This document shows positions 6,501 to 64,000 of a stretch of DNA of 64,000 nt, piece by piece. Every line of letters begins with the position of its first letter. Positions within the stretch are counted from its first letter, which is position 1. Source of the DNA: Anas platyrhynchos. Taxonomy: Eukaryota > Chordata > Aves > Anseriformes > Anatidae. Location: NCBI RefSeq assembly GCF_047663525.1, contig NC_092611.1, positions 4,563,001 to 4,627,000 of the forward strand, given 5' to 3'. Position numbers and translations under genes: made by a program. The notes under the pieces are model-generated. The model searched no databases. It was given only the letters and a program-made list of their open reading frames with translations, and was not told the origin of the DNA.

Positions 6501-9153
6501 TACGCTACTCATTTGTAATGTAGTTCACTCATTTGATCTGCTTGGATATGATATTTATAGTTGGTAAAATTCCCTCCTTTCACTTGATATGCTGTTTGTA
6601 ACTTTCCCTTATCATTATTTGTACTTGTTCTGTTTTGTCTGGGATGGTACAATTATGCTGATGTAGTAATTTGCACCTCCGATCATTTGGCCATGGCAAG
6701 GTCTCCCCTAAGTTCCTACTAAAATGAGTTAAAATCAGAGTCAATTTAAACCTGTTTGAACAAGGACCACTTCTCCTGGAAGCTGCCCAGCAAGCAAACG
6801 GTTGTTTTTAATCTGTGCACTATTTTGGCAAACTACATCCAAAGACTTAGAGGTCCTTAAGTTAAGTCTGCTCCTCAGAAAAGGCAAATGGCATTGCCTT
6901 TGATAAATAAAACATTTTCACTTGGAAAAAGAATTAATGACGTATGATATCAACACATGAACTCTATAAACTGATGAACAGAAACAACAACATCAAGTCT
7001 TAAAGGACTGGACACAGGGAAGATATTTTCATTTCTTTTTAGTGAGTATTACTCGAGATACTTTAACAACACAGACTGTATCTACTGTAAACTTAAAATG
7101 GCCAGACCCACTTTCTGCAGAGAAGAAAATGATACACTGAGCAAAGAAAAAAAATTGTGCAGGCTACTAGGCTACATTTATTTATTTTGTTTTAGTTTAT
7201 TTACTTAATTAACTGACGTAGCCTTTCATGTATACATTACGTGAATGAAGCAGACCAGCACATTCTTCATTCTTATGGTTTTCAAATAAACCAGGCTTTA
7301 TTAAAAATCTTTCAGTAAACAAACTCTACCAAACACAGGTCAAGCCACTTAACTGAAGGCAAAATAGCTGACTAGGGCAAAATTTTGGTAATTAAACTAG
7401 AAATATTGCAAATTGCCGGCCTTCTGACTTACTAAAAGCCATTTAATACATTATGAGCAAAGAGAAAAAAACAACCTTTAAATATTAGCTATTAATAAGC
7501 AACAGCCTGCTAGAAAAACCCAAAACTGGCTTCAAACTGTCCTTTACGGAAAAGGTTTCTCTCAGCAATTGGCAGCATTTGAAGAAGCAACTTGAGAACC
7601 AAGCCCCACAGAAATGGAAAGATTCTCAGTATTATGACTGTGTGGTTTTGCCTTCGTCTGGGACATTAAGATGACAGTGTTCCACCACTTATTTTGCAAA
7701 TCTTCTTACAAAGGCTCTCTGTCATGGTTATACAAGATTTTATGTCTGATGCAAAGTACCATTCTGTCCCTCTGTGGCTACAAGCCATAAGTCTTTCAGA
7801 TTTGGTGTTACAGCGTAACTGGGATCGTGCCTTTTGACACTACTGAAAACAGAATTATTTTTCCCAGTCAAGCAACCAGAAGTAAAAAGGGGCTATCAAT
7901 CCCTTCTGAATAATCAGGAGGTCTACCAGCAGGCCTACCTTCCTTAGTTGCGTTCCAGTTGTTTAAATTGCTCTAAGTCCTGTCCCTCCACCAGGGTTTA
8001 TATATAAACATTTCATTAAACAGGAAAAAAAAAAAAGCAGTTCCACAAAAATAAAACACAAACACATTTCCTCCAGTAAAATCATGAGTGCACACGCATG
8101 CACCTGTACATCTATAACCCCAGAAACGGCCATACCTATAGAGGAAGATTGTGGGCTGATCAGGAGATCTTCCTGAACTTGCTCGCTTCCTGGGACCGTC
8201 TGCTGATCGCTCAGGGAGCTCTGGGACGCGCTAACAGGCTGCGATACCTCCTCATGAACCTCCTCATCACTTAACCTCTCCACTTTGACACGCACGTCTT
8301 CCTCGATCACGAGGGGCGAGCTGGCTTTCGTGCTCTCACACGTCACGTAGTCTGCAATTCTTCTGTTGGACTCCGAGGGCCCAGGCATTTCCAAAGTCCT
8401 AGAGTTCTCCACCTGCTTCACCTTCTCAGACTGAAGCCTTCGATCAATTCCAAAAGGAAAAGTCCAGGGAAAAGCTAAGGAGGAGTCTACAGGCTGATTT
8501 CTGGACTCCGGGTAAGAAGTTGAAGGATTCAGCACTTGAGGGGAACTTGTTTGTGTGTTACACTTGAGGGGGCTCTCAGGAGACATGACGATGTAACTTT
8601 TGCGCTTTCTTCGCGACTCTCGGCACACGGGAATGGTTCTTTCCACCACGCTGCACTCCGAAGACACCGGAGACAGGCTGCCGTCTCGCGAAGTGAAATT
8701 GCAGTTTGCACTGTTCTCCTGGCCTGCATCTAGCACCTTCTCCTGCTGGCTGTTGGGCGTATTCCATAAAATGCTTGACTTCATGAACTCCGAGCACGTG
8801 CTAGCCACGCTGAACATTTGCATGTAGCTGGCTGCAGCCAACACGTCAATAATGTTTTCGGTATTGATGGACAGCGTTGCTGTGTAAGCGTATTCCAGTA
8901 GGGGTATAAAACCAGTCACTGTCACGTGGTGCAGGTCTAACACGCTCTTGCTCTCGTCTTCTGCTTGGCCGACGAGTTTGGATCGGAAGAAGTCGCTGCA
9001 GGCTGCCAAAACCACCTTGTGCGCCCTGAAGATTTTGTCCTGGACGCGAATGGTGATATCACAGAAATGTCCGTCGTTGCGAAGCATGTTCAGCTTTCCA
9101 AGCATCTCCTGACTGTGAGCAGGGGAATTATGAGTGAATGTTTTAACACCCAT
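3485..9153 (-). CDS. ZBTB44: ZBTB44, BTB/POZ zinc-finger transcription factor (5' coding part; zinc-finger exons off the left edge)
   Basis: Two coding exons, 8136-9153 and 3485-3569, join in frame to give residues 1-367. Residues about 19-125 form a BTB/POZ domain, with the family motif GHFCDITIRV at 28-37 and FRAHKVVLAACSDFF at 42-56. After it come a basic cluster RRKRK at 181-185 (likely nuclear localisation), a serine-rich linker, a sumoylation-type VKVE at 289-292 and an acidic DDDD at 364-367. The text matches vertebrate ZBTB44 as I remember it (about 570 residues), whose C2H2 fingers start shortly after this point. No finger-coding sequence is visible in 1-3484, so those exons should lie beyond the window. 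BTB domains dimerise and recruit co-repressors; the specific targets of ZBTB44 are not known to me. The start has a strong context, with A at -3 and G at +4. Order and strand relative to ADAMTS8 and ADAMTS15 agree with human 11q24.3. Confidence 0.93.
3570..8135 (-). other. ZBTB44: ZBTB44 intron of 4.6 kb
   Basis: The intron is bounded by GTATGG at 8135 and AG at 3570 on the minus strand. It is AT-rich, with scattered short reading frames and no family match. A minus-strand AATAAA at 7302-7297 could serve a transcript that reads past the BTB exon; otherwise I see nothing functional. Confidence 0.7.
8136..9153 (-). CDS. ZBTB44: ZBTB44 coding exon with the BTB domain
   Basis: This exon carries the start codon (9153-9151) and 339 codons plus one base. 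The splice donor follows base 8136 (exon ATAG, intron GTATGG on the minus strand), leaving phase 1. The acceptor lies 52 bases upstream of the ATG, at 9206. The frame stays open past the donor for 57 more codons to 7963, but that tail is hydrophobic and low complexity. The next exon restores the known protein, so the donor is preferred over read-through. Confidence 0.93.
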
Positions 9154-9205
9154 TTTTTCACCTTTCTGCTAGCGTTCCTTCCACATACGAGAGATCACAG
9201 GTATC
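9154..9205 (-). other. ZBTB44: ZBTB44 5' UTR part of the BTB exon
   Basis: On the minus strand a pyrimidine-rich tract ending TTTTAG at 9206 is followed by 52 bases before the ATG. This is a standard acceptor, so at least one non-coding exon must lie upstream, at higher coordinates. Confidence 0.75.
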
Positions 9206-28962: not shown

Positions 28963-31900
28963 CCAGTGGGTGCCCCCCAGGCAGCTGCCCCAGCACACAA
29001 AGCGCAGCCACACGTGGGAGCAGAATCCTGCAGTTTACATCTACCCCAATGGAGCTGGGAGTTAATGAGCCTCAAGTTAATCCACCCCTGTAATTTGGTC
29101 CAAATCTGCACTAACTTGGGGTAAGCGCAGTTTAATTTGAGGTGATTAGTGCGGCCATTTTCTCCGTGGTCACGTTATTTATTTATTTAATTTATTGCAA
29201 TAAGTGCTCAGTAAATTGAGGCAGGAAACAGATTGAAAGGCCACCGTCCAAGAACGTTAATCAGCGGTAAAATATTTTAAAGCGGCCCCTGGAAAACACC
29301 GCACTGCTCCTCAAACAACAACAAAAACAATAAAAAAAAAACCACCACCAACAACAAAAAATAAGGCCAAACTCCTTGTGCTGGTGTAAAAACCCTGGGA
29401 CTATTTTTTTGCTGGTTACTTGCAAAACCAGGGGGAGAGCAGAACCCCTGCAGGCTCTGGGATCCTGCTCTCTGCTGCTTCATTCTCCTTTGGCTTCCTC
29501 TGGCTTTGCATTTGCGGGGAGCTGCAGGGTAAACCCGGTGCACTGCTCCTTTGCAAGTTACTTTGGTGAAAAGCAAGAGCAAAACAGCACTGATTTGGGC
29601 AAATTGTGCATGTGTGCACACAGGTTGCTGCCACCTTTTTCAGCTGATAAACAAGATATGATTTGCAAGGCAAGGAAGAATCTGGTCCTGTCCATCTGTG
29701 GTTTAATAAAGATTAATGAAAATCAGGGCTACCATCCCTGCCCCTCCAAATGCTACCCCAAAAAGTGCAGAGCTGAGGGCGTTTTGTGGTGACACTGCTG
29801 CAGACCAAGTGGGTTCAGTGGGTGTGCAGCTGATGCTGTTTCCTGAAGGCTCTCGATGCAATTTGCATTTTCTTGCTGGCTGCAGACACTTGTGCTGCGT
29901 GTTGTGGCATTGCTTTGAAACACTGATTTGGGATAGTTTTGTGTACAAAGCTCCAGGTTCATGCAGCGGAGGTGACGGTGGGTCACTGCCCTTGCTTCTG
30001 TCCTGCCCAAGCCTGGCCTCGAGCAAGCTGTGGGCTTGGTGGGTGAGGGGCCAGCTCTGAACACCCAAATTCTCATTGGGAAGATTCAGCGAGGTGCTCA
30101 CGGTGCCGCAGCAAAATCACCAAACCCTACAAATATCCCATTTAAACCAACAGCTGCTGAACCTGCTGTGTGGATCCAAGACATAAATGAAACGAAATGA
30201 AAAGACATAAGTGAAAAGATGCAATGAAACAACGCGCTGCCTTTATTTTTTTTTTGTAACTAATTCTTTACATTGCTCAGCATTGTCCCAAGAGCGGGGT
30301 GAGTGCCTGACAGCACATCAACATCACCCCAAGGAGATTTCAACCACAAAACACTGCAAGGAGGGTGAGCAAGGGAGACTTCTGGGTGCTTGCACTCCAA
30401 AGCGGATGCATTAGCTCACCCAGCCATGACTGCAGCACCAGTGCTGCCAAACTGATCAGCCCAGATAAATAAAATAAAATAAAATAAAATAAAATAAAAT
30501 AAAATAAAATAAAATAAAATAAAATAAAATAAAATAAAATAACACAAACAAACAAAAAGAGCACCTTAATTTAATTTCTTCCCCTTTCTCCTTTTCCCAC
30601 ACAACCTCCCAGCTCCTGGCTGTGTTCTCCACCTGCCTCGTTAGGTTTCCAGTTAGCAGCAGGGCATTGGGTGAGGGAATCGGGTGGGTCTGGCCGGCAG
30701 CAGGCTCTGCAGAGTGTTGGAGGCTCCTTGCGTGGGACACTTGTGGGTTTGGGCATCAGCTGTCGATAAATCCTGGGCTACCTCTGTGCTGGACCGAGCA
30801 CAACTGGGATGCACGAGAAAGAGAAGGTGGGGCTCAGGGTACCGAATGGCACCCACAGAGTTATCCAAAATACTTGCAACCCCAAATTCTTTGTAGAAAT
30901 CTGCATGAATGCTCCATGGAAATCCACTCCGGGGATCACACTTAATAAATGAAATGTTCCAAGATGTGTAAAAGATCAGAGTCACAGCTTTCCCGTAAGA
31001 GGCGACTTGCTCTTAAGCACATTTTACAACATTGTGAGCTCGAGTCATTGACACAGATGGAAAAATGTTGACATGAAACCTGAGTAATTTGGTGGTAAAT
31101 CTGCTCTGTATCTACCAAGAGTGAGCCCACACTTGTTTATTTCTTGGGACCGTAGCTTGGCTGGGCTGGCTGCAGTTCCGCAGGTACAAACACCAGCGGG
31201 GAAATGAAGAGAAACCTTTGACAGCATCGCGATGGCTCCTGGCCTCCACCTGCAGCTTCTGCACAAGATGCAAACTCCTGAAGCCTTGCCTCGTTTAACA
31301 GATGAGATCTGAGCATTTTGGAAAATGTTAGAGGCTTAAAGCCTGCAGCAAGAGTGGTGTTGGCAGTGCCAGCAGCTCCTAGGGCAGCTCGGCCATCCGG
31401 GACAGCTTCCCTTTGTGGCAGCTCTGCTCTTCCTGCTGCTGAAACCTCCAGGACTGGGAATGTGTTTGACCTTCAGCGTTTGCAGGTCCAGCTCCGGTGT
31501 GCCGGCTGCATGCACAGGAATTGTCCCACCAGGAAGCTGCCCACGTGCTCGCGCCTCTCCTGATTGCTGCTGCTGCAAAAAAATATGCTGCTCGGGCAGA
31601 TTTCCTCGCTGCTTCCGTCTGTTTTGCACCGGGACATCTCAAAGCCCTGGTGGGACTCGCTGTTGGCTGCACAGCTTCCCTGCCCCAGGCAGGATGCAGA
31701 GGGCACTGATGCAGGATTCATTGGAGATGTGCTTGAAGATGCTCAGCCGCTCTCTGGGGGCTGGTCTCTTGCTTGGATCCTTGAATCTTTCCCCTCCTGG
31801 CTTGCTCACCGCCTGCAAGCTCCCAGAATGGGTGATCCCTGGCTGAGGGCTTTTTCACCCCCTTGCTGCAGCCTGTAGGAGAATCCTCCCTTTGCTTCAG

Positions 31901-37691: not shown

Positions 37692-38424
37692 TCAGCACTG
37701 TCGCAGCAGGCAGGTGGCAGTGGCCGGTGGTGGCCCCGGGGAGCTGCATTTCTCCGGGGCGATGATGGTGCCGGTGTAGTGGATGCAGGAGGCGTTGCGC
37801 GTCCGCACGCCCTCGCCGCACGTCTGGGAGCAGGGGGACCAAGGGCCCAGGCGCCAGAGCGGGCAGGGGACGTCACCGCAGGGCTTGATGTCCTCGGGCT
37901 TGAGGGCTCGGTCGCAGGTGGAGGAAGGTTGGCCCTCAACGTCCCGGCAGTCCACCGTCCGCCTCTGCCAGCCCGAGCCGCAGGTCTTGGAGCACTCGGA
38001 CCAGTCGCCCAGGACCCACTGGGAGGTGAGCATCGGGCGGATGGCGTTGGCCGATTTCTTCTCTTTGCCCTTCTGCTTGCTGAAAGGGACGTCCTTGGGG
38101 ATGAAGAAGGTGTACTTGACCTTGGGTGGGAAGACCTCGCTGGCGATGGTCAGCAGCTGGACGGTCAGCGGCTCGGGGAGCTGCCGGAAGCTCTGCAGCC
38201 TCTCCAAGGTCGTCATGGAGCCGCTGTACTTCAGGATGGTCCCCTTGACGAGGATGTCCTGCTCCATGGCCGAGATGGCAAAGTCTCCGTTCAGCAGGTA
38301 CTTGCCCTCCAGGGTCCTCAGGGCCAGGTAGTTCCCGTCGTGACGGACCCCGCGGTGGCTGCGCTGCTTGATGTCGATGTTGGTGGCCCCAGCGGGGATG
38401 GTGACGATGTCGTTGTAGCCGTAC
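37692..38424 (-). CDS. ADAMTS8: ADAMTS8 exon 9: spacer and two C-terminal thrombospondin repeats, stop
   Basis: 733 nt to the TGA at 37694-37692. It encodes the spacer ([17 protein letters not shown] onward), TSR 2 ([18 protein letters not shown]) and TSR 3 ([17 protein letters not shown], ending CLLRQC). Both TSRs keep six cysteines, and TSR 3 carries an NAS sequon. Acceptor ACGCAG. Confidence 0.95.
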
Positions 38425-41400
38425 CTGCGTGGGGCAAAGGGACACGGTTATTTTCCTGGGCCTGTCGAGAGGAGGCCCACACAGGGGATAACATTTTCCA
38501 AGAGGGATCAGGGCTCTGAAGCCGCCTCTCAGTATCCCAGAGCGCTGCGGCTGTGCCAGATGTGCGCCAGGCTGGAAGAAATCCCTAAATTACATGCAAA
38601 AATGAGCAACGCAATCAAACGAATTATCACAGTGATCAGCCTCGGGAGGAAATTCCGGTTACTTTCACGCTACCCTCACTCCCTTTCATTTGAAACAGCC
38701 GCAGCATTTGGCACAAAAAGCCCAGATGTGCCCCGTGACTTTGTCACTGCTGAGGGCGCAGCAGGGCAGGGGAGAGGTGGGCGCATCGCAGGGTCTGGGG
38801 GCCAGACGTTGCTGCTGAGAACAGGAGCCAAGCAGTTAAAAGCACAGCCATCTCGGGCTGCAGATGGCTTGTTGTGAACTGGAAAGACTTTTCTAGAAGG
38901 CAGCAAGAACCAGGGCAGCAAAAAATACCCGTGCCAGTGCCTGCTGTGCTCTAACACCGCCTGGCAGCTGTGCCAAAAGTGCCACCCCGTGCCACGGGGC
39001 CAGCAGGGGTCTCGTGTGCACTCCCCAGGTTGGTGCTGCGGTTGGTAATTACAGTCGGAGTATTTTGGAGCAAAGCCTTCGGGTCAAACCCTGCTCTCAG
39101 TCGCCCTGGCCTCCACAACCCTGATCTTAATGGGATCTCTTCTTGGCCGTACTACCACGCTAATCTCTCCTTAGTCAACCACAAACAATTCATAGGAGAA
39201 TGGAAGCTCCATTCATCTGGCTCCCTGGAAGGAAACCATTTAGGAAATCTAATTTGACTGAGTGAGTCACCTCGCCACATGGAATGGGATGTGCTGGGCT
39301 TTTGTTGCTATCTGTTCAGCAAAGCCTCCGTGGGACACATTAACTCCAGCTCCTGACAAAGCATCTTGGGCGAGGGAAGCAGCTGCCTCGAAGCCCACGT
39401 CCTGGGACCAAACCTCACCCCAAGCCAGGGAGAAATTGTTGAGCTATTTATATCCTGAATCAACCCTCAAAATGTGTCTCAAACAGGCTCCCTGCACTGC
39501 GGAGTGATTCCTATTGTAAACTCCTCAGGGCGATGACTTTATTCCCAGATGGGGTGTCAGCACCAGCTCTGGTTTTAGGAAATAAGCTCCCCCTGCAGAA
39601 TGCTGCCCCAAAGGAAAGGCAGCGAAGCCCTGGGGTCTGGGGATGAGCTCAGCCTGCATCTGCAGGGCTGCAAACCCCGTTGGCTCCTTAGGTCTGCAGA
39701 TGCAGCCTGCAGCTGGGTGCAACGCTACGGGTGCAGAGAGCAAAACATCTTTACATAGCTTTGGAGGATTCCCAATAATCCTGGTCCAGCAACAGAATGG
39801 AAGAAAGATTTCCTAAACCTCATGCTGTTTCCCAGCAGTGAGAGGCAGAAACAGGCCCACTCTGGTTTTGCTGCTTGAGAGCAAAATGCTCAAAGCCCAA
39901 AATATCCAATTTACCCTTCTGCATCGCGGCAGCTTCCAGAGCCAGCACCATAAGGCTGGTCCCATACAGCACCCCCTGCTCCATGCAGAGACACCCCCAG
40001 AACCAGGAGTGGGGACCAGGGGTAGGGGCAGGGGATCCACGCAGGAGCCTGGCCATGGAAACGCTGCCTTGGCTCTTTGATAAGCCCGGGCCTGGTCTCG
40101 TTTCCTCTGTGGCGAGCGTAGGAAGCGCTTACGCAGACGCTGGGCTTTTGTGAACATCTGCCCAGTGCTCCGGGGCTGGCTGCGAGGGATGGAGCGAGCA
40201 AAGCTCCCCGGCCAGATGTTGCTGGGTCAGGAGCTCTGCGGAGCGAGAGCAGCTTTTCCAATCGCAGCCTCGAGAGGAACAAACGCGTCTCTGCTCCCTT
40301 CCGACGGCCTGGCGCTGCTCTTCTCCCCCAGCCCCTCTCTGCAGACCCGCTCTCCCCTGAGCCTTACTTGGATCTGTTGAGCGAGCCGGATATTTTCCTG
40401 CAAGTCGAGCCATTGCCGCCGCACACCCCGCATTTGTCCAGCTTTTTGGAGGACCCGACGATGTGATCGCAGCCGGCCTTGATGCACTGCCCGTGCACGC
40501 AGATGGAGAGGGTCTCCGGACCACACAGCGTCCCGTCGATCACCTGGGGAAAAAAGGGCAATGAGGGGCAGTCAGGGCACGGCTGCCTGCAGGGATTTGC
40601 TCTGACTCAGGGTAGGGATGGGCGTTGGGATTTGCCATCACGAGACACCTTACTTTGGCCTCAAAGACTTTAAATTCGCTCCTCCCCCTGGCTCGGCAAA
40701 AGAGCTTGCAGCGGTCCCGGGGGGACACCCCGGCGTACTTGGGGACCCACTCCAGCCGGTTCCCATCCAGGTCGGTGAAGTTGTAGCTGTTGTACTTCTC
40801 GCACTGCTGCTCCCGAAAGCTCTTGCCTGGAAGGAGAGGCAAAAACGTGACCCCAAAGCCCCAGGCTGGGAGGCAGGAACCACCATCCTCCTCTGCCATC
40901 GCGGAGACGCAGGAGAGACCTGAGGATGGTGGGCGCACAGCTGCAGCAGCCAGCTTTTGCCCAAAACTGCCTCTGATGGACTGCAGAGAAAAGGAGAGGG
41001 GAGCGGATGAGCTGCCAGGTGGCTTACCATCCTGCGGGCACTCGTCGGTGTGACACGACTGGTAGCGGGTGCGCTGCCCCTCGCAGTACCTGCCGCCGTG
41101 CTGGGGCCGGGGGTGGTCGCAGTGGCGGTGGGAGAACTGCACGCCGCCACCACACGTCCTCGAGCAGGGCCCCCAGGGGCTCCACGGGCCCCAGTCGCCA
41201 TCCACCGCCGGCTGCAAGAGGCCACAAGGGGCTGAGAGGGTGGAGGAGGCACAAAAATTCCCCCCGTCCGCCCCCAGCTCCTCTCCCCGTGCCGCTAAGC
41301 GGGGCCCTGGTCCAGCAAAGCACTTAAGCACATGCTTTGCGTGAAGTTGCTGCCGGCTTCCACGAGTTCGCGTGCTGGAAGTTGGCACTTTGTTGGCTGG

Positions 41401-44400
41401 CTCAGAAATCGCTGCTAATACCCCCCGGAAAAAAAATAAATAAATCAGTTTAATCAGAGTTAATTGCAGAGCTGCTGGCTGCTCGCTCTGGTTAGGACCA
41501 GCCCGGTGAACGCGCAGCAGTGCGCATCTAACACAAACCAGCAAACAGCACAGTGCTGTCGGAGGAGATATCCAAAATATAAACCCAGCAAACCCCAATA
41601 TGCTCCTGGAGACTGCAGGATGGGGGTTTGGGAACTCCAGAAATCCACATCCCAGCCCTTCAGCCCCACATCCCAATGAACTGTGCCAGTACCTGGGGCT
41701 GGAGCGCGTCCTGGGGCAGGCAGGCACCGTCCCAGCACAGCCCGCTGCCCTTGCAGGGGGTGCCGTCGGCCCAGGGCAGGCTGCCGTTCTTGGTGTGGCA
41801 CAGCGGCTCCCCGGTGCCCATCCTGCACCACAGCTGGGAGCAGATGTCCTCCTCCGTGGTGTTGGGGCAGTGCTGGAAGTCCTTGCCAAAGATCTGCTGG
41901 CACTGCTGGTCCAGGCTGTAGAGGGCTCCTTGGCCGGGCAGCTCGGCGGGCAGGGAGAGGGCTTTGGCCGGGGCGTCGAGCAGGCAGTCGCCTGGAAGCA
42001 GCAAGGAGGTACAAGAATTAGGCTGGAGATGCATCTTAACACCACGGGTGGCACCGAGAAGGCGACCAGAGCTTCAGCCTGTTGTCTGGTTGAGTTACCT
42101 TCACCCCACGAACCCCTCCAGGGCTTGCAAAGAGCCCGAGCAATCAAGGGAGACGCTGCTGAGTCTTACCGTGCCCGCCGTCCAGGAACTCGGTGAGGTA
42201 CATGGCGCTGCAGGGCGACCACGGCTGGCTCTTGTTCAGGTGGACAAAAAGCGGGGCCATCATGTGGTGCTTGCCGAGGGGCCCGAAGAGCCGCTCGCAG
42301 GTCTTGGAGTCGTCGTGGGGCATGCTGAGCACGTGGCCTGGGGAGCAGGAAGCGCCTCTGTGAGTTACCTGCCTCTATTTGCTTCCATAAATCAGGAGCA
42401 ATAAACAAAATGCTTGCTCGCTGTAACGCAATGATGTATGAAATGTTGGGGAAAACAACCCAAATTAGCAGATCTCTAGGAGCAACACAAGGATGAGAAG
42501 CTCCTGGTCCCATGCTGCAGCTCATCACAGCTTAGTTACACCAGACAAACGCACCCATTTCTACCAGCTCTGGCACTTGTAAATATGTTTGCTCACATAA
42601 ACCGGCCCCTGCTGGTGCCTGAAGCCCCCCCAGTACCACTGCAGGCTTTGCAGCTGGTACCCAGAGTGGAGATGCCAGTGCTGGGCAGAAAACAATAAAA
42701 AACACACACACAAAAAATAACAAAACACCAGAGGCTGTGCATTACCCAGTTCATGAGCCAGGGTGTAGGCTGCCTGCAGGCCCTCGTCCTCGATCACCGA
42801 GCAGCTTTTGTTGCGGTCACACATGGTGCCAATATCTGCCACCCCCAGCGTGTCGCAGCTCTGGTGTCCGCAGAAATCCTATCAGAAAGCAGCACCAAGA
42901 GGGTGAGGACGGGGAAACCCAAAACTCAGCGCCCAGAGAGCACCGACCCCAAAATCTCAGCTCGTCCCCACTGGGAGCTCCATCCCACGCTCTCCTCTCC
43001 CTCCAGGGCCACCTCGATGCCTCGTCTCCCCCCAGCCCGTGCCAGGGGTCCCTGCAGACCTGTCTGGTGAGCAGGATGGCGGTGTCGTAGTGCTCGGGGT
43101 GCCGGTCGCTCAGGGGATTGAACTGCTGCTGCCAGCTGCAGAAATTGCGCAGGGTGAGGCCGCCGTTGTCGGACACCTCCGGCCCCGCCGCCTCGTCGTC
43201 CACCACCAGCACCTTCACCACCACCAGGTTGATGGCGTTCTTCAGGCTGGGGTGCTTGTAGATGCGGGCTGCCATGGACATCAGGGTCAGGACGTGGTTC
43301 TGCAGGGAGGGAGAGGGATGGGAAAAGCCCTGGTGAAACCTCACCCGCAGGGGCGCGTGGTGTAGCTCACGTCTGCGCGGGGCGCCTCTTGGTTTTGCTA
43401 GGAAATGAGAAATCAGCCCCGTTTATGATGCCTACCACGTCCCTGTGGGGTCATGCGACCACCTGGGCTGGTGGACGAGGCGCTGCCATCCTGGTACACG
43501 GCGCTGTGCTCCCTGTGCCAGTGGGAAGGACGCGGCAGGTTACGGGCAGGACGATCCCACCCCGTGGTCATTGCCTTGTCCCCTTCTCCAGCCGCCGTCT
43601 GTCACATGCCACCAACCCTTTGCACCCAGGGACGCTTTGGGAAAGCCTCACGTGTCCTCACCAGTGCTCCTGCATATTCCCACGGCATTAACCCTGCCCT
43701 CATCTCCCCGGGGCAGGGGCTGCCGTGCGTGCACAGCCGCCGCTGCTGCAAATTTCCCTCCCGCTGCTGCAAAATTCCTGCCTGCGCCGGTCAGCGGGGC
43801 CCGAACCCGATGTCCCCAGCCACAAACCACGCTTTCTGCCCATGACACTCGGCCCTATTACTCCTTGAACGTGTTCTCTGGCTGTGGCCCACGCGTCCGA
43901 GCCACGTGCGGCTCCTTCCCACCGCGGTCCCTGCTGGTGAATGGGGCTCGCTCCCACCCCGGGGCTTCTCCCAGCAGCATCCCCGGCTCGGCGACCGGGA
44001 CAGCCGGCGGTTACTTCATATGTCAAGTGCGCCAGCAACGTTTAGGCTGATGTAAACATCTTATCGGAGCATCGACATTCCTCTTCTGCTTGGCACCCGT
44101 TCACAGACCCGGAGTCAGGGGAAAAAAATGCGGCTATTACACAACACGCGAGTGTTGGGAAAGAGAAAGTGGCTTCTCCCGGCCCCAGACGGGTCGCCCT
44201 GCCACGGCACCGCCAGCCCACGGAGCCGGCGGGAGCCCCTCATGTGTGACTCATGTCCCGGGCCAAAACACGCAGTGAATGTCACGGAGAAGTCACCACC
44301 GAGGCCAGAAACGCAGACGAGGTCCCTGCGAGTGCAGCCACTTGCTCCAGGGGACGGGGGGATTGTTTGTCCCGTGGGGAAGTCCATTGGGAACCTACCT

Positions 44401-47400
44401 AAAAATAGCACAAAGCCTTCCTAAAATTACCCCTGGGAGGACCTAGGAGGATGCTCTGCAGGTCCACAGCCTCCCGTTTCCTTTGCATCCAGAGTGCTCC
44501 TGCGCAACCAGGCGGCATCGCCACCCATTGAGAGGATGATACAGGAAAAAGGGGCAACTTTTTCCCAACAGCACTGCAGGGAGGTTTTCTCTCTGTGGTG
44601 GTCTTAAGGTCGATACGTGCACCACAAAACATGCCTGGGACACAGAAGCTAACCTTAATGCCATCGTTCCTGCTCAAGCACTCTAAGAGGTGTGAAAAAT
44701 CATGGGATCATCCAGCACCTTGAAGCAAGTCCTGCCCCGTCCCTGTCCATCCCCTTCCAGGTTTCTCACCAGTCTGTATTTTTTACCCGGGAGCTCTCAG
44801 AGCCCTAGGATATGACTGTGGGGCTATGCCCAGCCAAGAAACTATTCCAGCAGTGGGAATGTGGGGGCTTGGAAAACATCCTTCTGCCTGCCCTCCATCT
44901 GCAAACGGCAGAAAGAGCTGGAAAGATGGAAAGTGAACCAAACAAACGGCTATTTAGCACAGATTAAAAGGTCAAATTCACTTGTTCCACCATCTGGTGT
45001 CTATTTATACCCGTCCTTGGACCGTGCAGGAGCTCGCTGGGTTTCGGGTGGCCCAATGCAGGACCCCAACTGCTCCGGGGAGAGCAGCAGCCCACCTGCA
45101 TCCCTCCTTGCTTTGGCCAAGGGCTCGGAGCTGGGGCTAAAAATGAGGTATGGAGTCCCCAGAGCTCAGGAGAGGCCGACTTTGCTCTTTCGGCCAACAA
45201 TTGACTGCAGATGAGTTGAATCCCGCTCCTCGCATCCTCCCTGTGCCTTTGCAAGGAGGCTGGATGAGCCACCTAGGAGGGAACACAGCTCGTGGGCTGA
45301 TTTCTGTCTCCTCGCAAGGTGCTGCTGCAATTTCCAGCCAGCGCCCTCAGAGATCATGGCAGGATTTCTGTCCAGCTGGTAAATACAGCTGGAAAAACAG
45401 TCCCTCGAGGTGCCAGCCCCCGTGGATCGCGGGAGCATCCCTCCTCTGCCCCACTTGCACTGCAGAGGCAGCACAAGGGTCTCTACAGCCTGGCTCATTT
45501 TGCTCCCAAGAAGCCCAAATTCAACCATTTTCCCCCCAAAGTGCCCATGCCACAGCTCTGATACTCCTCCTGCTGCAGCACGGCCATTTCCTACCCCAGC
45601 CCTGACATTGCCATTTGCTACCCAAGCCCCGAGCAAGCCGCACGTGTGCACCACTGGCACTGCTGCTGTGCCTGGGGAGAAGGAACCCTGCTCGGGCAAA
45701 CTGCACAGCGGCCACTTTGCAAGGAGAAAAACTATTTATCTAGACCCGTGGGGGACTCGATCCTGGGGGAGACAACGCAGCCCTTACCCAGGCAGCTGCC
45801 TGACGTGGTTACAGGTCACGGGACTGCCAGCGGCAAGCAGTACGTGCGGCGAAGAGGCTCAGCAATGAAAAAAATAAATAAGTTGGAGCACAGAGAACTG
45901 GAGTGATTGCTTGCAACGTGCCAATGCCGAAGGATTGCGCTTTCTGATACAGGCTCTTGCAAAATCTCTACTTACGTTCATCTTCAAAGGAAGCACTTGG
46001 AAGCTGAAGTCTGCAGAGATCCCCAAACTGTTTTTAAAAATTATCGTTTTTTTTTTTTTTTCTTTTTGGGGGGGGGTACGACTGGGGGGAGGAGAAACCA
46101 GGCTTAGACCGACACTATTGCTGTGGTATGTGCACGATGATCTAATGTCGTGGTCCCACCCAGTGCAGGAGGATGGCAGGGTGCAGCCCCCGGCACGGCT
46201 CGCCTCCCCCCACACGCTCCCCAGCTCGTGCTGGGGAAAAACACCCGCAGAGACTAACTGTGCTTGACCTGCTCTGGGGCTGTAGGTTTGTTTGTTTGTT
46301 CATAAAGTTGCCTTTTTTTTTTTTTTTTTTTCCTCCTCCCCTCCCTTCTCCCTAGAAGCCAGCGTTTCTGCAGGGGGAGAGAAGAAAAACGCCGAGATTT
46401 CTGGAGAGCGGACAGATGGAAGGAAGAAAACACAGGGTCAGATGCGAGGGCTGCCCAGCTTTCGAAAACAACTGGTGAAAACACATCTCAGCCTGCCTCC
46501 CAAAACATCTGCCTGGGTGCCCTGGAAAATCAGTGGTGGCAGCCAAGTGAAATGGGGGCTGAGCTGGGGATGAGGGGGGCACCCACACCCCAGCTGCGCC
46601 TGGTTGCCCCATCCCTGTCCCACTTCTCCCTTGTTTTTCCTCCTCTCCCACCCGTTTTTCCCCTCCTTACTGGATATTTGGGGCTGTCCCGTGAGAGAAG
46701 CAGCTGTCCCTTGTCAGGCTGGGGACACGGAGGCACGGCAGCACCGCTGCATGGGCCAGCAAAGAGCAAACTGTGTCCCCGAGGGGTTGCGGGGGGCAGC
46801 CTGCGAACAGGGCTCCTTTTGCACCGTGCCTTTCATACCAAAGCCCTTTATAATCGGCACTCAGCAGCAGGGCTGAGGCTCGGCAGCTGTTTAACATTAC
46901 GAGGAGGAGGCAGGCGGAGAAGAGCAGCACATCTGCCAAGGGGATGCTCGGGGGGCGCGCTCCTCCTGCCCCGCGCAGCCGTGTGCCAGGGATCCTCCAG
47001 CCCCTTGCACCTGGGTCTGGGGAAATGCAGGCGGTGCTGGTGGATGGCAGGATTGGTGCAGGTTGCTTTTTGCTTTGCAAAAATCCCTGTTAATCCCATC
47101 CCTTGGGATCGGCTCAGGAGGGGTCGGCTTCTTTTGTCAAGGGATTAAGCGAGCTCCAAGGCTCAAGCTGCAAAGTATCATAAGCAAGCTTAAGAGCTGG
47201 ACACGAGGGAAACTGAGGCTTGGGGTGGCTTTGGCTTTACCTCTGGGTCACTCTGACGGCTGGCCTGAGCACCAGGGGTGGCAGCAGGACCCTGGCTGTG
47301 CCTGGGTGCAGGTCAGAGGTGCCCCATGCCATGCACGGGGCCACACACTCCAGCGCCCGGCTGGTCTTACAGGGGAGGAATTGCAACAGCACTCCTAATA

Positions 47401-50400
47401 CCTCATAAATCTGCCTGGAAAAACCACAAAAGTCAGCAGAGGAATCCCAGCTTAATCAGCCCAACCTCATTTTGCTGTGGTCCTCGGTCGCTGCCTTCAC
47501 GTGCCAGCTCTTGGAGGCAATGGATACGGGCTCCTTGCATCAACGAAGAGGGAAAGAAAAGCAGAGAGCAGCCATCCCGTCTGCTGAGGAAGGCTTGGAA
47601 ACGCGTCTCATCCCTGGTCTCTTGGGGGCAGAAATCCCACTGCAGTGATCTCATTCTGCTGCCAACTGGCTGGGGATGTTGCAGCCAGTTTCCGTGGCTG
47701 CCTGCTGCTTTTGGGGTTGCAGACAGATCTGGGGCATTGCTGAGCACTGCTCCAAGTGCAGCCTGTGTGGTGTGCAGCCTTCAGCACGTCAGAGGAATTA
47801 AGCCCTGCACCATCTCCTGCCTCAGTTTTCCATAATAAAGAACCCCTTAATTCTGCTAGGGATACACAGTCCTCCCCCCTTCAGAAATTATCTTGGGTTC
47901 TCTGCATGAAAACCCAAAGAATAATTTCTGCATCCATCCTGGGGCCTTGCATCCATCTCTATATAGGGGAGCACTTTCTGTTCACCACAACTCACATCCC
48001 ACAAAGTCCTCCACGACCTGCTGGGTGCTCACAGGTGGTAGAGCCCAGCACTGCCCTGCTGCTGATGCCCCTCAGACCCCCTATCTCCTGCAGTCATCAA
48101 CCCAGAAGGAGGATTAAATCCCCAAATCCCAGGCCTGGTTTTGCTCTCACTTCATAATTTCCTCCCGGTTTACATGAGCATTGATGGAAGCAGAATTAAG
48201 CTCTTGTTATCTAAATTGGGTTAACAGCTGAATTATAATGGCTCAATCCATGGCACAGATTGATTAAAAATAAATCACTAATAGCATTTCCCTAATAACA
48301 GCATGACATTGATTATAATTTGCAATGCTTGAATGCATCTCATGGTGACTATCTTCTGCTTGATCTCTTGCAGCTTATGCAAGAAAGTAACTGGGAATAC
48401 AAACAATGCTTGTGGCCTTTAATAAATATTTAGTAATTAAAGTGTGGTTACGGGAAGAAAAGTCACTATGTAAATATGGCTTCTTCTGACTCAACATCGC
48501 AGCTGCCTGGGCATCTCCTTGAGAGCTCACTGGCACAAGGGAGCCATCAGTTTTTTGGCTCCCAAAACCTAGGTCCTTAGGGAGAAGCAAGCAGGCTATT
48601 GGGTCTCTGAGTTGGGAACTTCTCCCTGTATTTGTGTCGCTGAGATCAAAAGACAGAAATAGAGCAGGTGTTTGTTGGCTGCTTTTTACTGCTACACTTG
48701 GAGGGGAAAATGCTCTAAGTGCAGAAGCTGCCACAAGAGCTGGCTGAAGTTTTCTCCCAAGTACTTAAATTGCCCTGTTCATCCTAAGTGAGATCTCTAA
48801 AAGCTTGCTTTCCATCAGGAAACACCCTGAGAGATGCTGCAAAGATACCCCTCTTCGGGACAAAGAGGAGACAGCAAAATAGGAGCCGAGCAGACCAGAA
48901 ACTAATTATTAAGGTAATTAAGGGGGGAGCTGCCATGCATCTGCCCTGCAGCATCGCTCATGCTCCAGGGCTCTCCCAGCAAAGACAGGGCTCGGTTCCA
49001 GCATTTCAGCCCCTTGCAGCTCAGCAGCCTTCTGCCTTCAAGATCTACCATGGCAGTGATGTGCCCACAGGGCTGTTATTTTTTCCCCACCTCAAGCTGG
49101 GCATTATCAGGATTCCCACCCAAAAATCTATCAGCTTAGCTGTAGCGGGTTGCAGACCCCTGGGTGCTGCTTTAAAATCTTCCTGTGCCCACCTAGCTAC
49201 AGAAGGAAGATGCAAAATGTTATTTTTCCTGTCCTTGTGGGGGATCTGGGACCAGTTTCATACTACTGGGAGTCATTTGCACTACCATTTATTTGCCTGT
49301 TGCTTAAAGGTTCAGGTTACTCCACTGCAAAACTGTTCTGCCTGCTGAAAGCTCGGGGGAGCTGTCTCCAAGTGCAGCATCCATTGCTCCTTAATCCCCT
49401 GCTATCTGCAGACTGAGCCCTCTGGAGTTTCTGCCGGCCCAGCTCGGGGCTATGTGAGCAAAAGCAAGCAAAGAGCAAAGCCTGAGTGATGCTGAACACC
49501 CGGAACAACAGCTGAAATCAGCTGGAGCACCAGGGCTCAGCATTTCTCAAGGTCAGGCACTGCCTGAGCAGGGCTGGAATTAAAACACTGCTTTATTAGG
49601 AGTGGAGAAGCTGGAGGAAGCCAGCAGAAAAAAGGACAAAGCGGGCAGAAGTGGCAAAGCCACGCTGCCAAAGTGCAGGTTTCAGGCACCCACACCAAGC
49701 TCTCCTCCACCAGCCCTGCACCCTGCCAGCCACAGCACAGGACGAGCACTTTCGGTGCACGCCTGTCTCTTGCAAAGCCCTGGGGATTTCAGACTGTGCC
49801 AGCCCAGATTTGGACCCGGGGACCCAAACAAACCTTCCCTGCCAGGAGCAGGGCAGCACGTGCAGGGAAGCGGGGTGCAGCACAGGACAACGCTTGGGAA
49901 AATTTCCCCCACGCAAGACCTGGGGAAACTGAGGCACTGGGAGGAGGTCCCCAAAAATCAGCAACCAGTGTTGCCGAGAGCCCCTCTGCGATGGGAAGTG
50001 CACACCAGACCCGAGGGATTAGCCCTGTCCTTATCACATCTGCAGTTGCACTGGCGTTTCCTGGGCTCCAGCTCCCCGGCACCAGGGGGCCACGTCCCCA
50101 CCCCGTCCCGCTGCGGGGGTCTCTGCGTTTCCTGGCTGGGGGCAGCGTGTCCAGGCAGGGAATGCTTCTGGCAGCGGTGGCGTGGGGAAAAAGCAGCGCT
50201 GTGCATCTGCTGGGCTGCTAACAGGTGGCTCGGGAGCGGGGCTGTTACCGTGCCATTTGCTGCCCAGCCCGTTGCAGCACAGCTCTGTCCCTACAGAGAG
50301 AAGTGGGGACACTGGGCACGAGGGACACTGCAGTGTGCAGCCTGGGCAGATGCATGGGGTGGGTGCCGGCTCTGGAAAGGGTCCCCAACACCAGCTGAAC

Positions 50401-51470
50401 TCCCCTGCAGCCTTTGCCCAGGGACTTTTGGCTCCTACAGAGCAAGCAAGGGTGGGGACGGAGCGCAGGTCCCCAGCCCACCGCCAGCAGTCCCTGCCTG
50501 TCCCTGCCCCACCAGGCTCCGGGGTGGGAGGGGGCCACCCCTTGCTGGCTCCAGACCCCCCGAGGACCCCGGGGTGCAGCACCGGGTGGGGGGCACACGG
50601 GCTCCCCGCCGTGCTGGGCTCCCCTCCGTGCCTTGGCAGCAACAGGGGGGCGAGTGGGAGCGGGACATGGCACGGGTGGGGACACCGGGGAGCGATGAGG
50701 GGCTGGGGGGGGGGACAGAGGGATGGGGACAGGAGGGAAGGGGAGGTGGTGGGGATGGAGAAGGGAAGGGTCACAGCGGGATGGGGCCGGGGATGGGGCG
50801 GGGGGCCAGCTCCAGCCCTTACCTCCACGTCCTCCCCGTAGAAGCGCACCATGGAGGCGTCGGCCACCAGCAGCGTCTCCACGTAGCGCGCCTCGGACAC
50901 GAAGCGCCGGGGCCTCCGGAGCGGCTCCGCGGGGCCGGCGGCTGCCGGGGGCCGGGGCCGGGCCGCCGTCGGGGCGGCCGTCGGGGCGGCGCGGCGCTGG
51001 AGGCGGTGCAAGCGGCGCCAGGGAGGGCCGGGAGCGGGCGTCCCGAGCGGCAGCAGCTCGTAGGCCGCCCCGTCGAGCAGGAAGGCGGCGCGGAGCCCGG
51101 CGGCCGGCCCGCAGCGGCTGAGCGCGGCGGGGGCATCGGGGCGCCCCTCGACGGTGCCCGAGTAGAAGCAGCCCCGGCGGGGCGAGGCGCGGCCCGGCGG
51201 CCTCCGACCTCCTCCCAGGCGCTGCAGGCGGAGGCGAGGGGCGAGGAAGGAGGCGTCGGGCCGGAGGCGAAGCACCACGGCTCGCCCGAAGGCGGCCAGC
51301 CGCAGCGCCAGCTGCCCCGACGGGGCGGGCAGGCGGGCGGGCAGCACCGGCTGAGCCTCCCGGGCCGGCGGAGGCTGAGCCTCGCGGGGCGGCGGAGGCA
51401 GCGCCCAGGCGTGGCACAGCAGCAGCAGGTGGAGCGGGGCCCGGCCGGCCAGCAGCGCCCGCCGCCCCAT
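37692..51470 (-). CDS. ADAMTS8: ADAMTS8, secreted zinc metalloprotease with thrombospondin repeats (complete, 9 coding exons)
   Basis: Nine exons join in frame into 917 residues: 50823-51470, 43060-43299, 42746-42878, 42170-42337, 41693-41991, 41028-41211, 40654-40826, 40368-40543 and 37692-38424. In order these encode a signal peptide (about 1-24), prodomain, furin site RRPRR at 185-189, and a catalytic domain with zinc motif [12 protein letters not shown] at 338-349 (His 338, 342, 348; Glu 339). There follow the disintegrin-like region, a central TSR (about 501-556), the Cys-rich region, the spacer, and TSRs at about 810-861 and 864-917. The protein is extracellular. The family cleaves aggrecan and versican, and ADAMTS8 is reported as anti-angiogenic. 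As I recall, human ADAMTS8 has 889 residues and lacks the last TSR. Several phrases ([40 protein letters not shown]) match ADAMTS8 rather than ADAMTS1 or 15. It lies head to head with ADAMTS15. Confidence 0.96.
38425..40367 (-). other. ADAMTS8: ADAMTS8 intron 8
   Basis: 1.9 kb with no recognised repeat or gene. The other introns between exons 2 and 8 are mostly 100-500 bases. Confidence 0.8.
40368..40543 (-). CDS. ADAMTS8: ADAMTS8 exon 8: Cys-rich region and start of spacer
   Basis: 176 nt, [12 protein letters not shown] to KISGSLNRS. It has the family CGVCGG motif, and leaves in phase 2 with the last codon split (AA, then G of exon 9). Confidence 0.95.
40654..40826 (-). CDS. ADAMTS8: ADAMTS8 exon 7: Cys-rich region
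   Basis: 173 nt, [12 protein letters not shown] to FKVFEAK. Includes an NFT glycosylation sequon. Acceptor CCAG, donor GTAAGG. Confidence 0.95.
41028..41211 (-). CDS. ADAMTS8: ADAMTS8 exon 6: central thrombospondin repeat
   Basis: 184 nt. It holds a TSR with the [17 protein letters not shown] core and six cysteines. Acceptor TTGCAG, donor GTAAGC. Confidence 0.95.
41693..41991 (-). CDS. ADAMTS8: ADAMTS8 exon 5: disintegrin-like region
   Basis: 299 nt, residues 397-496, starting at DCLLDAP. It is Cys-rich, with the conserved [20 protein letters not shown]. Acceptor TTCCAG, donor GTACTG. Confidence 0.95.
42170..42337 (-). CDS. ADAMTS8: ADAMTS8 exon 4: second half of the zinc motif, Met turn
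   Basis: 168 nt, from [13 protein letters not shown] to FLDGGHG. It supplies the second and third zinc histidines and the HHMMAPLF Met-turn region. Acceptor CCCCAG, donor GTAAGA. Confidence 0.95.
42746..42878 (-). CDS. ADAMTS8: ADAMTS8 exon 3: catalytic domain, first half of the zinc motif
   Basis: 133 nt, from [18 protein letters not shown] to AHELG. The intron splits the Gly codon of the zinc motif (phase 1). Acceptor CTGATAG, donor GTAATG. Confidence 0.95.
43060..43299 (-). CDS. ADAMTS8: ADAMTS8 exon 2: catalytic domain
   Basis: 80 codons, residues 217-296, phase 0 at both ends. It begins [18 protein letters not shown] and ends DTAILLTRQ. The donor is GTCTGC, weaker than the others, but the join to exon 3 gives the expected text. 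Confidence 0.94.
43300..50822 (-). other. ADAMTS8: ADAMTS8 intron 1, 7.5 kb
   Basis: The largest intron of the gene. It contains T-runs at 46047-46061 and 46315-46332, an AT-rich island at about 48.18-48.34 kb, and G-rich DNA at 50.64-50.82 kb beside the exon 1 donor. Reading frames here overlap on both strands and show no domain. Confidence 0.75.
50823..51470 (-). CDS. ADAMTS8: ADAMTS8 exon 1: signal peptide, prodomain, start of catalytic domain
   Basis: 216 codons, phase 0 at the donor (GAG before GTAAGG). The ATG at 51470 has G at -3 and G at +4 and is followed by a leucine-rich signal peptide ([10 protein letters not shown]). The frame stays open upstream through the A/T tracts, but that part precedes the TATA box. 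The prodomain has only two cysteines (101 and 120), is very rich in Arg, Ala and Pro, and carries a small APTAAPTAA repeat before the furin site. Confidence 0.94.
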
Positions 51471-60476: not shown

Positions 60477-60485
60477 GCCGGGACG

Positions 60486-61382
60486 ATGCTGCCGCTGCTG
60501 CTGCCGCTGCTGCTGGGTGCCCGTGCGCTGGGCGCGCCCCAGGGGGACACGGCGGTGGTCACCCCGCTGCGCCTCGACCCCGACATCAACGGGAGGCCCC
60601 ACTTCGAGCGAGGCGGCTCCGCCGAGGCCGTGGTCTTCCAGCTGTCGGCTTTCGGGGAGGATTTCTACCTGCACCTCGCCCCCGACGCCCGCTTCATCGC
60701 CCCCGCCTTCGCCGCGCAATACCTGGGCACCGCGCCCGGGGCCGCACGCCCCCGCCCCGGCCTCCGCCACTGCTTCTACTCGGGGGATGTCAACGGAGAC
60801 CGCGAGTCCTTCGCCGCCCTCAGCCTCTGCGGGGGGCTCCGGGGGGCTTTCGGCTACCGGGGAGCCGAGTACACCATCAGCCCCCTGCCCGGGGGGGCGG
60901 CCGGCGGAGCCCACCGCCTGCAGCGCCGCGGTGCCGGCCTCCCCCTCGGGGCCTCCGCCTCGCGGTGTGCCGTGGGCTCCGGCCTCACCCCCGGAGTGCT
61001 GCAGGCTTTGGCCAAGTACCGGGGGAGGGCCGGGGGGGCGCCGGGGGGGAGAGCCAAGCGGTTCGCCTCCGTGCCCCGTTACGTGGAGACCTTGGTGGTG
61101 GCCGACGAGTCCATGGTGAAGTTCCACGGGGACGACCTCCAGCACTACCTGCTGACCCTCATGGCCACGGCCGCCCGCCTCTACAAGCACCCCAGCATCC
61201 GCAACCCCATCCAGATCTCCGTCGTCAAGTTCCTCCTCATCGGGCAGGACGACAAGGGGCCCAAAGTCACCGGCAACGCCGCCCTCACCCTCCGCAACTT
61301 CTGCGCCTGGCAGAAGAAGTGGAACAAAGTCAGCGACAAGCACCCCGAGTACTGGGACACCGCCATCCTCTTCACCAAGCAG
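60486..61382 (+). CDS. ADAMTS15: ADAMTS15, secreted zinc metalloprotease (exon 1 only; rest beyond the right edge)
   Basis: 299 codons in one exon, donor GTGGGT after CAG (phase 0). Residues 1-17 are a leucine-rich signal peptide, followed by the prodomain with three cysteines (96, 115, 161; the last may be the cysteine switch). A furin site RAKR lies at 189-192. The catalytic domain then starts FASVPRYVETLVVADESM and runs to DTAILFTKQ, before the zinc motif. The text fits ADAMTS15 (VKFHGDDLQHYLLTLM, SVVKFLLIGQDDKGPKV), a versican/aggrecan-cleaving family member reported as a tumour suppressor. No further exon appears before 64000. The position where ADAMTS8 has its first intron is uninterrupted here, in line with one exon fewer in human ADAMTS15, as I recall. 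It lies head to head with ADAMTS8. Confidence 0.95.
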
Positions 61383-64000
61383 GTGGGTGCGGGTCCCCAG
61401 GGAGGGGGGGACGACCCAGCAGGGCTGCCCCCCCTTTCCCCCAGGAGCCCTGCACCCTGCTGCCCCTCACCTCCCACCTCCTCTGCATCCCCTGCACCCT
61501 GCGTGTCCACCCCCAGCCCCACAGCCCTTTCCCAAGGAGCCCTCCACCCTCACTGCCCAGCTTGGATGGCAAAGGGGGGCGGCGGGGAGGGAAGCAGAGG
61601 TGTGGAGCCTGCTTGAGCCAGCCTGGTTTTGGCTGTCATCCTGCAGAAAGCCCCGCCGTGAGGCAAGTGAGGCCAGGAGGTGTGCAATGGCAGGTTGTCC
61701 CCATGCACAGAAACCTGCCGGTCCCTCCCCAAGGAGGGGGACCCCCCCCCAGTCTTGGCACAAAGCAGCCGCCACCCCAAAAAGCAGAGTCTGAGCCCAG
61801 AAGAGGAGGAGGAGGGTGGCCAGCTCCAGTTCCCCCTGGCTGGGAAGCGCTCGCGCGTTGCAGCTTGTGGTGGCACCTGCCAAGAAAAAACCTCTCCCTG
61901 CTTCCTCTGAGTCATGCGCGAGGTCCTCCTGAGGACCCGCAGCTCTCCGTGTCCCGGCTGCTCCGCGTGGACCCAGCTCAGGGCTAAAGAAAACACTGGA
62001 GAAACAGGCAGTGCCTGCAGCCCCGGGGAGCTGAGGGTCTGGCTGCATCCCTGCTTCTTGCTAGAGGTGTCACTGTGCTGGATCGGCCCCCAGGCTGCTA
62101 GTGGGAGGGAAGAAGGATGCGCCCAGGTCAAAGGGGATGGTCCCATTTTTCCCCAGGGCAGGTTGTGGCAGCAAAGACAACTTGCGTTTTCTCCTTCCCT
62201 TCTCCCTGCCCAGCTGTCTGGATGAGGGACGTGTTGGGAACTCCCCTCAGAAGCAGTGAGGCCGTCCCCAAACTGCTTTCCAGGTCAAGCACTCGAGGGT
62301 GGGAAGGATGCTGCTGCCAGCTCAGCTTGGCCGCCACTCGCATGCGCTCAGTGCAGGCAGGAGTGATGCTGTGTGGATGTGAGGGACCTCAATGCCCCCA
62401 TCTCCCTGTCCCCCCGCCCTGGCAGGGTCTGTGTCCTCTGGCAGGGTTAAATCCTGCTGGAGCAGCTCCTGTCTGTGTTGGGTGGCTGCGAAGGGGAGGA
62501 GGAAACCTGCTGACACCCCTGCGGGCAGGAGCCAGCTCCGTCTCTGGTGGAAACCCGGTGAGGTCGCCAGAGCTGCACGTGGGACAAAGTTGGGCCTGTG
62601 GATCTGCAAGCCACGCCGTCCTGCAGCGCACAGCATGGCTGGGCTGCATTTTTTACACATTGCTAAACCGTCCATTCCTGAAATCCCAAGGCAAGCTCAG
62701 TGCAAAGGCACACGATCAAGGAGACATCTGCCTTCCTTGAATGCATCCATCTGTGGTCCCCTGACACCCCAGAGCTTATCTCCCTGCCAAAAAGCTGTTA
62801 CATAAGCCCCCAACTTAAATTTCACTTTGAGCCCAGTTGATCGGCAGTTTCCAGTTTTGTCAACAAGTTGCTGATGGATGGGGCTGGCCTCTCCTGCCCG
62901 GCTTTGCTCCCTGATGCCGGTCGTGCTGGACAGAGGATTCGCCTTTGGGGAGCTCGCTCCTGCCCAGCTGGATGGTGTGGATGTGCCAGCAAGCATGGCC
63001 ACGGGATCTTCACCTCCCTTCCTGAGCCGGTGCTTGCCGGAGGGGCTCGCAGAGCATCATCCATCCTCCAGCTGCCCTCCTGCCTCTTGGGAACAGCATC
63101 ACGCATTGCGAGGAAAGGCTCAACTAAAATTTTCACCCGTCCTGAACCTTGACGTCCGCTGGCCCTAACAGCAGAGGTTTGCTGAACACCTTTGGCCTCC
63201 CATCAAACCGAAGGGATGTTGCTCCAGGGGACATCTCGCTGTAGCACAGCGTCACGAGGGAGTTTGGAAACGCATGCTCTGAAAAATCCTGAGGCCGGGG
63301 AGCTCAGATTTTTGGGATTGCTTTGGACACGTGCGGGGTAAACCTCAACAGCCAGGAGAATGCTTGCGGTCTGACCTAGCCTCTGAGTATGCGAATTAAT
63401 ATAAAAGCCACAAGGATCCCACTCAGCTGACCTGCAGAAATTTGCAAGGCGAAGAAGAAAAACCTTTGGAAAGTGTCCACAGATGGAGCTGAGGCTGTCA
63501 AGGGAGCCCTGGTGGTGCAGCTCACTCTGCCTGCAGCCCCTTGGCACGGTGCTAGGGCGAGGGCAGCACAGGGAGCACCCGGCTGGCGGGGATGGGACGG
63601 TCGTGGCTGTTGCCCTGTGAGTTGTGTGTCCGTGCCTGCTTCTGGTTTAATTTCTGGCTGTCTGTGCTCTGAGGATGGGTGAGGTGTTGGTGCCTGTTAG
63701 CCAGGTTCCTCGCTCAGTCGCAGCTTGAGGCTCTCCAGGCTGTCTCCGAAACGGACAGAGCCCAAATGTCTGATGTCCACGCATGACAGAATGACAGCAC
63801 AACCCCATCACGGGCTTTGTGGAGAGCGATGGTGGTGAGCGTACCGTGTAAAGAGAGCACTGGCCCTTTGCATGCTGCTTTCCCACCTTAATCCCCTTTC
63901 ATTTCCCTCCCCTTCCCTCCATAGTTTCAGTCTCTCTCCCTGTTCTGGGCATCCCCCTATGAACTCCTTCCCAGCCTCTCCTCCTGTTCCTCCAGCTCCT
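61383..64000 (+). other. ADAMTS15: ADAMTS15 intron 1 (continues past the window)
   Basis: GC-rich at first, then ordinary unique sequence. I looked for the next exon (CDTLG and HELGH text) and did not find it. No repeat or RNA gene was recognised. Confidence 0.7.

Follow-up and report, generated by a model that had tools for sequence, protein, structure and literature searches.

The ADAMTS8 gene of the duck Anas platyrhynchos encodes a protein that ends in two C-terminal thrombospondin type 1 repeats (TSRs), against the single one given in the ADAMTS8 descriptions of PMC4349717 and PMC8577114. Duck ADAMTS8 is orthologous to a known gene and exceeds its human counterpart by one domain, which is a difference between lineages; we regard the one-TSR count as describing the ADAMTS8 proteins studied to date and not as a defining property of the gene. 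From comparison of sequences, we consider it likely, at a probability of roughly 85%, that duck ADAMTS8 retains the terminal repeat of the common ancestor of ADAMTS1, ADAMTS8 and ADAMTS15. Among the matches listed from the open-licence literature (main text), no description of an ADAMTS8 with two C-terminal TSRs was found, and bird ADAMTS8 predictions in protein databases probably hold the repeat already, as we would expect.

Within the window, by which we mean the whole analysed stretch of 64,000 nucleotides, the ADAMTS8 coding gene occupies positions 37692..51470 on the minus strand, and its model was built from splice junctions, the assembled frame and the Pfam domains of the whole protein. 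The nine predicted exons lie at 51470-50823, 43299-43060, 42878-42746, 42337-42170, 41991-41693, 41211-41028, 40826-40654, 40543-40368 and 38424-37692, with boundaries placed by sequence at GT-AG sites for all eight introns, and together they form a single open frame of 917 aa. Searched as a whole protein against Pfam, this frame contains the propeptide (residues 51-108), Reprolysin (195-404), ADAMTS_CR_2 (418-488), TSP_1 (504-554), ADAMTS_CR_3 (595-663) and spacer (666-783) domains, followed by TSP1_ADAMTS twice, and a motif scan placed the metalloprotease motif with HELGH at residue 338. The domains thus follow the ADAMTS order of propeptide, metalloprotease, disintegrin-like region, central TSR, Cys-rich region, spacer and C-terminal TSR. 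Exon 9 (37692..38424) holds the spacer, both C-terminal repeats (TSR2 and TSR3) and the stop codon in one piece. The first-pass annotation of the terminal repeat had left the strand open; the minus strand carries the gene.

The gene is the ADAMTS8 orthologue, as had been proposed, because of its identity to the human tail, an intron that has no counterpart in its relatives, and an adjoining ADAMTS15. The duck protein shares 252 of 323 residues (78%), with no internal gaps, with the human ADAMTS8 tail that served as reference, which starts at residue 567 and ends at the L of CPL. The distinguishing intron follows residue 216, at a point that a single tblastn stretch crosses in all four relatives of the same genome (ADAMTS15, ADAMTS1, ADAMTS5 and ADAMTS4), gapless between residues 196 and 240. 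That the gene is instead ADAMTS1 or ADAMTS15, for which two C-terminal TSRs would be ordinary, has scarcely any chance of being right: where the last exons could be matched, it does share 54% and 46% identity with the ADAMTS1 and ADAMTS15 of the same genome (36% with ADAMTS5), but that genome contains separate ADAMTS1, ADAMTS15, ADAMTS5 and ADAMTS4 genes, the human ADAMTS8 reference tail is matched at 78%, the intron is missing from all four relatives, and ADAMTS15 is the neighbour. When this human tail is numbered with GRRAKY at 567-572, 11 of 11 further residues numbered in PMC8577114 agree with it, and its last residue is 889. One review gives 890 residues for human ADAMTS8 (PMC3712723), versus the 889 of the reference tail. 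An intron gained in ADAMTS8, and within the subfamily in ADAMTS8 only, is reported as intron 17 in PMC549037, and the duck intron after residue 216 would correspond to it.

The additional repeat, TSR3, comprises residues 864-917 and lies at 37695..37856 on the minus strand, as identified by translation, by Pfam TSP1_ADAMTS and by controls. It had been claimed that a complete six-cysteine TSR of 54 residues follows CPL and is then closed by a stop, and this is what the sequence from 37856 down to 37695 contains: 54 residues with six cysteines run on in frame from ...DVPCPL, no stop lies between TSR2 and TSR3, and a TGA at 37692..37694 closes the 917-residue frame. The repeat opens with Trp864, whose codon, TGG at 37854..37856, comes right after CPL and, in the alignment with the human reference tail, is the next position past the human end. 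Taken alone, TSR3 matches Pfam TSP1_ADAMTS (PF19030) at 54.8 bits (E 1.2e-14) over profile positions 1-55 of 55, for a curated cut-off of 23.8 bits, and TSR2, the C-terminal repeat shared with human ADAMTS8 (residues 809-861, 37863..38021, minus strand), matches the same family at 56.3 bits. None of nine controls, the exact reverse of TSR3 and eight residue shuffles, matches any Pfam family at E <= 10, in a search in which HMMER filters discard most matches above E ~0.1. A 54-codon open frame is by itself unremarkable in GC-rich DNA; the remarkable part is the full-length domain match. A chance open frame as the source of TSR3 was ruled out by the failure of all nine reversed or shuffled controls to match, and an assembly error at the stop was likewise rejected, since a whole intact domain comes after.

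The motif scan found CSQTCG at residues 872-877 of TSR3 (37815..37832, minus strand), in accordance with the O-fucosylation consensus CxxS/TCG stated in PMC4448532, and an N-A-S sequon at residue 884, past that motif. The net charge of TSR3 is +3, versus -2 for TSR2. GC content at the third codon position is 0.89 in TSR3 (53 codons), 0.90 in TSR2 and 0.94 in the spacer block, and past the stop it is 0.80 over the initial 162 bases, followed by five blocks at 0.54-0.69. Because it is still 0.80 in those 162 bases, third-position GC alone would not locate the stop. An AlphaFold2 model of TSR2-TSR3 alone, built from the single sequence, has a mean pLDDT of 38.2, too low to inform on the three-stranded fold with three disulphides that is typical of such repeats.

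To place TSR3 among the repeats of its subfamily, we used the window's own genome (1.26 Gb, 42 contigs), in which ADAMTS1, ADAMTS15, ADAMTS5 and ADAMTS4 were named from sequence and genomic place and the tails of the first three were read. The claim that ADAMTS1 and ADAMTS15 own this last TSR holds in the same genome, where both have two C-terminal repeats (T2 and T3) in their last open frame, and ADAMTS5 has one (tail at G000:C1:108336967-108337518, minus strand). Like duck ADAMTS8, ADAMTS1 and ADAMTS15 carry the spacer and both repeats in one frame with a stop just past the last TSR, and the opening Trp of T3 is shared as well (CPVW in ADAMTS15, CQQW in ADAMTS1). The tblastn match to ADAMTS4 stops within the spacer. 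A search for a decayed TSR past the stops of ADAMTS8 (4001 bases) and ADAMTS5 (3952 bases) and past the ADAMTS4 spacer (1501 bases) gave only matches at E 0.24-9.8, none of them convincing, and no relatives were found in collections of genome contigs and viral contigs.

TSR3 most likely represents the terminal repeat native to the subfamily and not a recent copy, because it scores best with the T3s of ADAMTS1 and ADAMTS15 and has the same 12-residue loop. Its BLOSUM62 scores are 129 with ADAMTS1 T3, 126 with ADAMTS15 T3, and 93 with the ADAMTS5 repeat, while the three T2s reach 73, 67 and 59; some cross scores between T2s and T3s equal or approach those of TSR3 with the other T3s (ADAMTS8 T2 with ADAMTS1 T3, 127; ADAMTS1 T2 with ADAMTS15 T3, 119). 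The loop between the third and fourth cysteines (C3-C4) has 12 residues in all three T3s and 10 in all three T2s and in the ADAMTS5 repeat. A later gain, in which ADAMTS8 lost the repeat early and then regained it, either from ADAMTS15 (through conversion or unequal exchange) or from a duplicated TSR2, is unlikely. The adjoining position of ADAMTS15 and the relatedness of the two T3s (score 126) would suit the first route, but ADAMTS8 T3 is as close to ADAMTS1 T3 (129), and its DNA identity with ADAMTS15 T3 is only 0.55, lower than the 0.62 between the T3s of ADAMTS1 and ADAMTS15; this argues against a recent copy or conversion, and only an old exchange would fit. Against the second route stand the score of 73 with its own TSR2 (z 0.9) and the 12-residue loop of the T3s that the T2s do not have, though the AU test falls short of formally rejecting a derivation from TSR2 (p 0.051).

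A maximum-likelihood tree of the seven repeats grouped the three T3s with a support of 85, though the repeats are short and the tree is weak. Five repeat topologies were tried and none fell below AU 0.05; the best two, which unite the T3s, had p 0.69 and 0.67, and lower values were obtained for TSR3 with the ADAMTS5 repeat (0.25), for the T3s plus the ADAMTS5 repeat (0.086) and for the derivation from TSR2 given above. This weak resolution tells against the reading that duck ADAMTS8 retains the ancestral terminal repeat, a state that we reconstruct from paralogues within one genome.

TSR3 is more diverged than its counterparts. It shares 21 and 23 identical residues with the T3s of ADAMTS1 and ADAMTS15, which share 29 with each other, and it has 12 unique changes vs 4 in ADAMTS1 and 12 vs 5 in ADAMTS15; TSR2 is not faster than its counterparts, its unique changes numbering 4 vs 5 in ADAMTS1 and 4 vs 11 in ADAMTS15. 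This faster change (12 vs 4 or 5) is what would be expected if TSR3 were a relict, with transcripts that end or splice earlier and a working protein like the human one. We consider this very improbable, since there is no stop between TSR2 and TSR3, the six cysteines, the opening Trp and CSQTCG are intact, the stop is where ADAMTS15 also ends, and the coding-like third-position GC continues through the repeat. The faster change would also fit weak constraint on the repeat before its loss toward human; the numbers are small.

The literature accounts of the human protein agree on one C-terminal TSR (PMC8577114), or two TSRs in all (PMC3712723), and ADAMTS8 has been likened in structure to ADAMTS5 (PMC4349717, PMC10499240). 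According to PMC4349717, ADAMTS5 and ADAMTS8 have a single additional TSP domain in common, against two in the two other tandem members, and the gain or loss of one repeat is placed near the time of the tandem duplication. Human ADAMTS8 (METH-2) and the duck protein are the same gene by sequence, alike in domain order through TSR2 and in having ADAMTS15 nearby.

The two differ in that the human protein, described with one C-terminal TSR, presumably ends before the Trp that opens duck TSR3. The proposal that the human end falls at the repeat boundary is borne out to the residue, the end of the human reference tail lying exactly before this Trp. In the lineage leading to human, the ancestral ADAMTS8 repeat would then have been truncated from its first residue onward. 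The codon after CPL in duck ADAMTS8 is TGG, for Trp (TGCCCGCTCTGG), and one change in this codon, TGG to TGA or TAG, would have been enough for the human form; a single G-to-A change would suffice, given that the last human residue is the one just ahead of this Trp. The larger proposal, that the ancestor had three TSRs and the human line lost the last, stands in part: the likeness of the T3s makes an ancestral two-repeat tail, with loss toward human, the simplest account.

The single C-terminal TSR of ADAMTS5 gives it the same count as human ADAMTS8 (PMC4349717). In the duck genome ADAMTS5, although of the same subfamily, differs from ADAMTS8 in having a single repeat with a 10-residue loop, like that of a T2, and this repeat scores 111-125 with the T2s and 74-98 with the T3s. 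Given its higher scores with T2s and its T2 loop length, ADAMTS5 has probably retained T2 and lost T3 in a separate event of its own, though the repeat tree still allows a grouping of its repeat with TSR3 (AU p 0.25). If ADAMTS8 kept T3 into the duck lineage, the one-repeat count common to ADAMTS5 and ADAMTS8 is convergent. We lean towards a full form of this account, in which the one-TSR tails of human ADAMTS5 and ADAMTS8 are convergent, T2 was kept and T3 lost separately in each, and ADAMTS8 lost its T3 late, toward mammals, after a period of relaxed constraint and through a nonsense mutation of the opening Trp codon.

A tree of the five-gene subfamily with two ADAMTS9/20-like outgroups, made from one species and a query-anchored alignment, had supports of 49, 60 and 80 within the five (full set) and placed ADAMTS4 and ADAMTS5 together. 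Among eight gene topologies tried, only (ADAMTS1,ADAMTS15),(ADAMTS5,ADAMTS8) fell below 0.05 by AU (p 0.031), with the SH and KH tests not rejecting it. The AU result is a weak hint against a pairing by repeat number, that is, of ADAMTS5 with ADAMTS8.

The neighbouring ADAMTS15 begins on the plus strand with exon 1 at 60477..61400 (end approximate), which was recognized by its reprolysin propeptide and by a tblastn stretch over ADAMTS8 residues 12-302; its other matched exons lie beyond the window, the last at contig 4633478-4634254. The start codons of ADAMTS8 (51470, minus) and ADAMTS15 (60477, plus) are 9.0 kb apart on opposite strands, in a divergent, head-to-head arrangement. Elsewhere in the window, an open frame at 8100-9168 on the minus strand encodes a BTB/POZ domain (Pfam BTB, 103.9 bits) and, from the human gene order, is likely ZBTB44. 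Between 27460 and 29174, very long GC-rich open frames overlap on both strands with recurring His/Cys-rich peptides, and this is probably repetitive non-coding DNA. A run of the AATAA pentamer, a microsatellite, was seen at 30468-30538 as 14 evenly spaced AATAAA matches. The CR1 tail motif, looked for as a bird marker, had 0 matches. The ADAMTS8/ADAMTS15 pair is described as tail-to-tail in PMC4349717 and as head-to-head in PMC4448532, and the arrangement in the window agrees with the latter. Linkage of the two genes in human is described in PMC8577114 and PMC3712723.

Because TSR3 shares its exon with the spacer and TSR2, it would be translated whenever exon 9 is read to its stop. By analogy with other such repeats, it would fold as a secreted, O-fucosylated and possibly N-glycosylated TSR and would add a second contact to the matrix or the cell surface. 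In ADAMTS1, the C-terminal TSRs retain the enzyme in the matrix and may exert a mild restraint on it, and their deletion was described to raise versican cleavage modestly and to leave biglycan cleavage unaffected (PMC10033314). Given this behaviour in ADAMTS1, the second C-terminal TSR of duck ADAMTS8 should chiefly modulate retention and access rather than catalysis. The central TSR differs as well: the proposed heparin-binding motif GRRAKY of the human protein (PMC8577114) reads GQRTRY in duck (residues 541-546, exon 6, 41211-41028, minus strand), with one basic residue fewer, so the matrix contacts of the duck and human proteins may differ at more than one place. In at least one bird, the zebra finch, ADAMTS8 is expressed in the brain, with a reduction listed for HVC (PMC2563692).

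These results make the C-terminal TSR count of ADAMTS8 a lineage trait, and the two-TSR form suggests independent repeat loss in ADAMTS5 and in human ADAMTS8. If the loss was indeed late and separate, non-mammalian ADAMTS8 would differ from the human enzyme in its anchoring. The bird protein may be a poor model of human ADAMTS8 where matrix retention matters, for instance in pulmonary hypertension, and the two-TSR form would offer a natural comparison for the role of the subfamily's terminal TSR.
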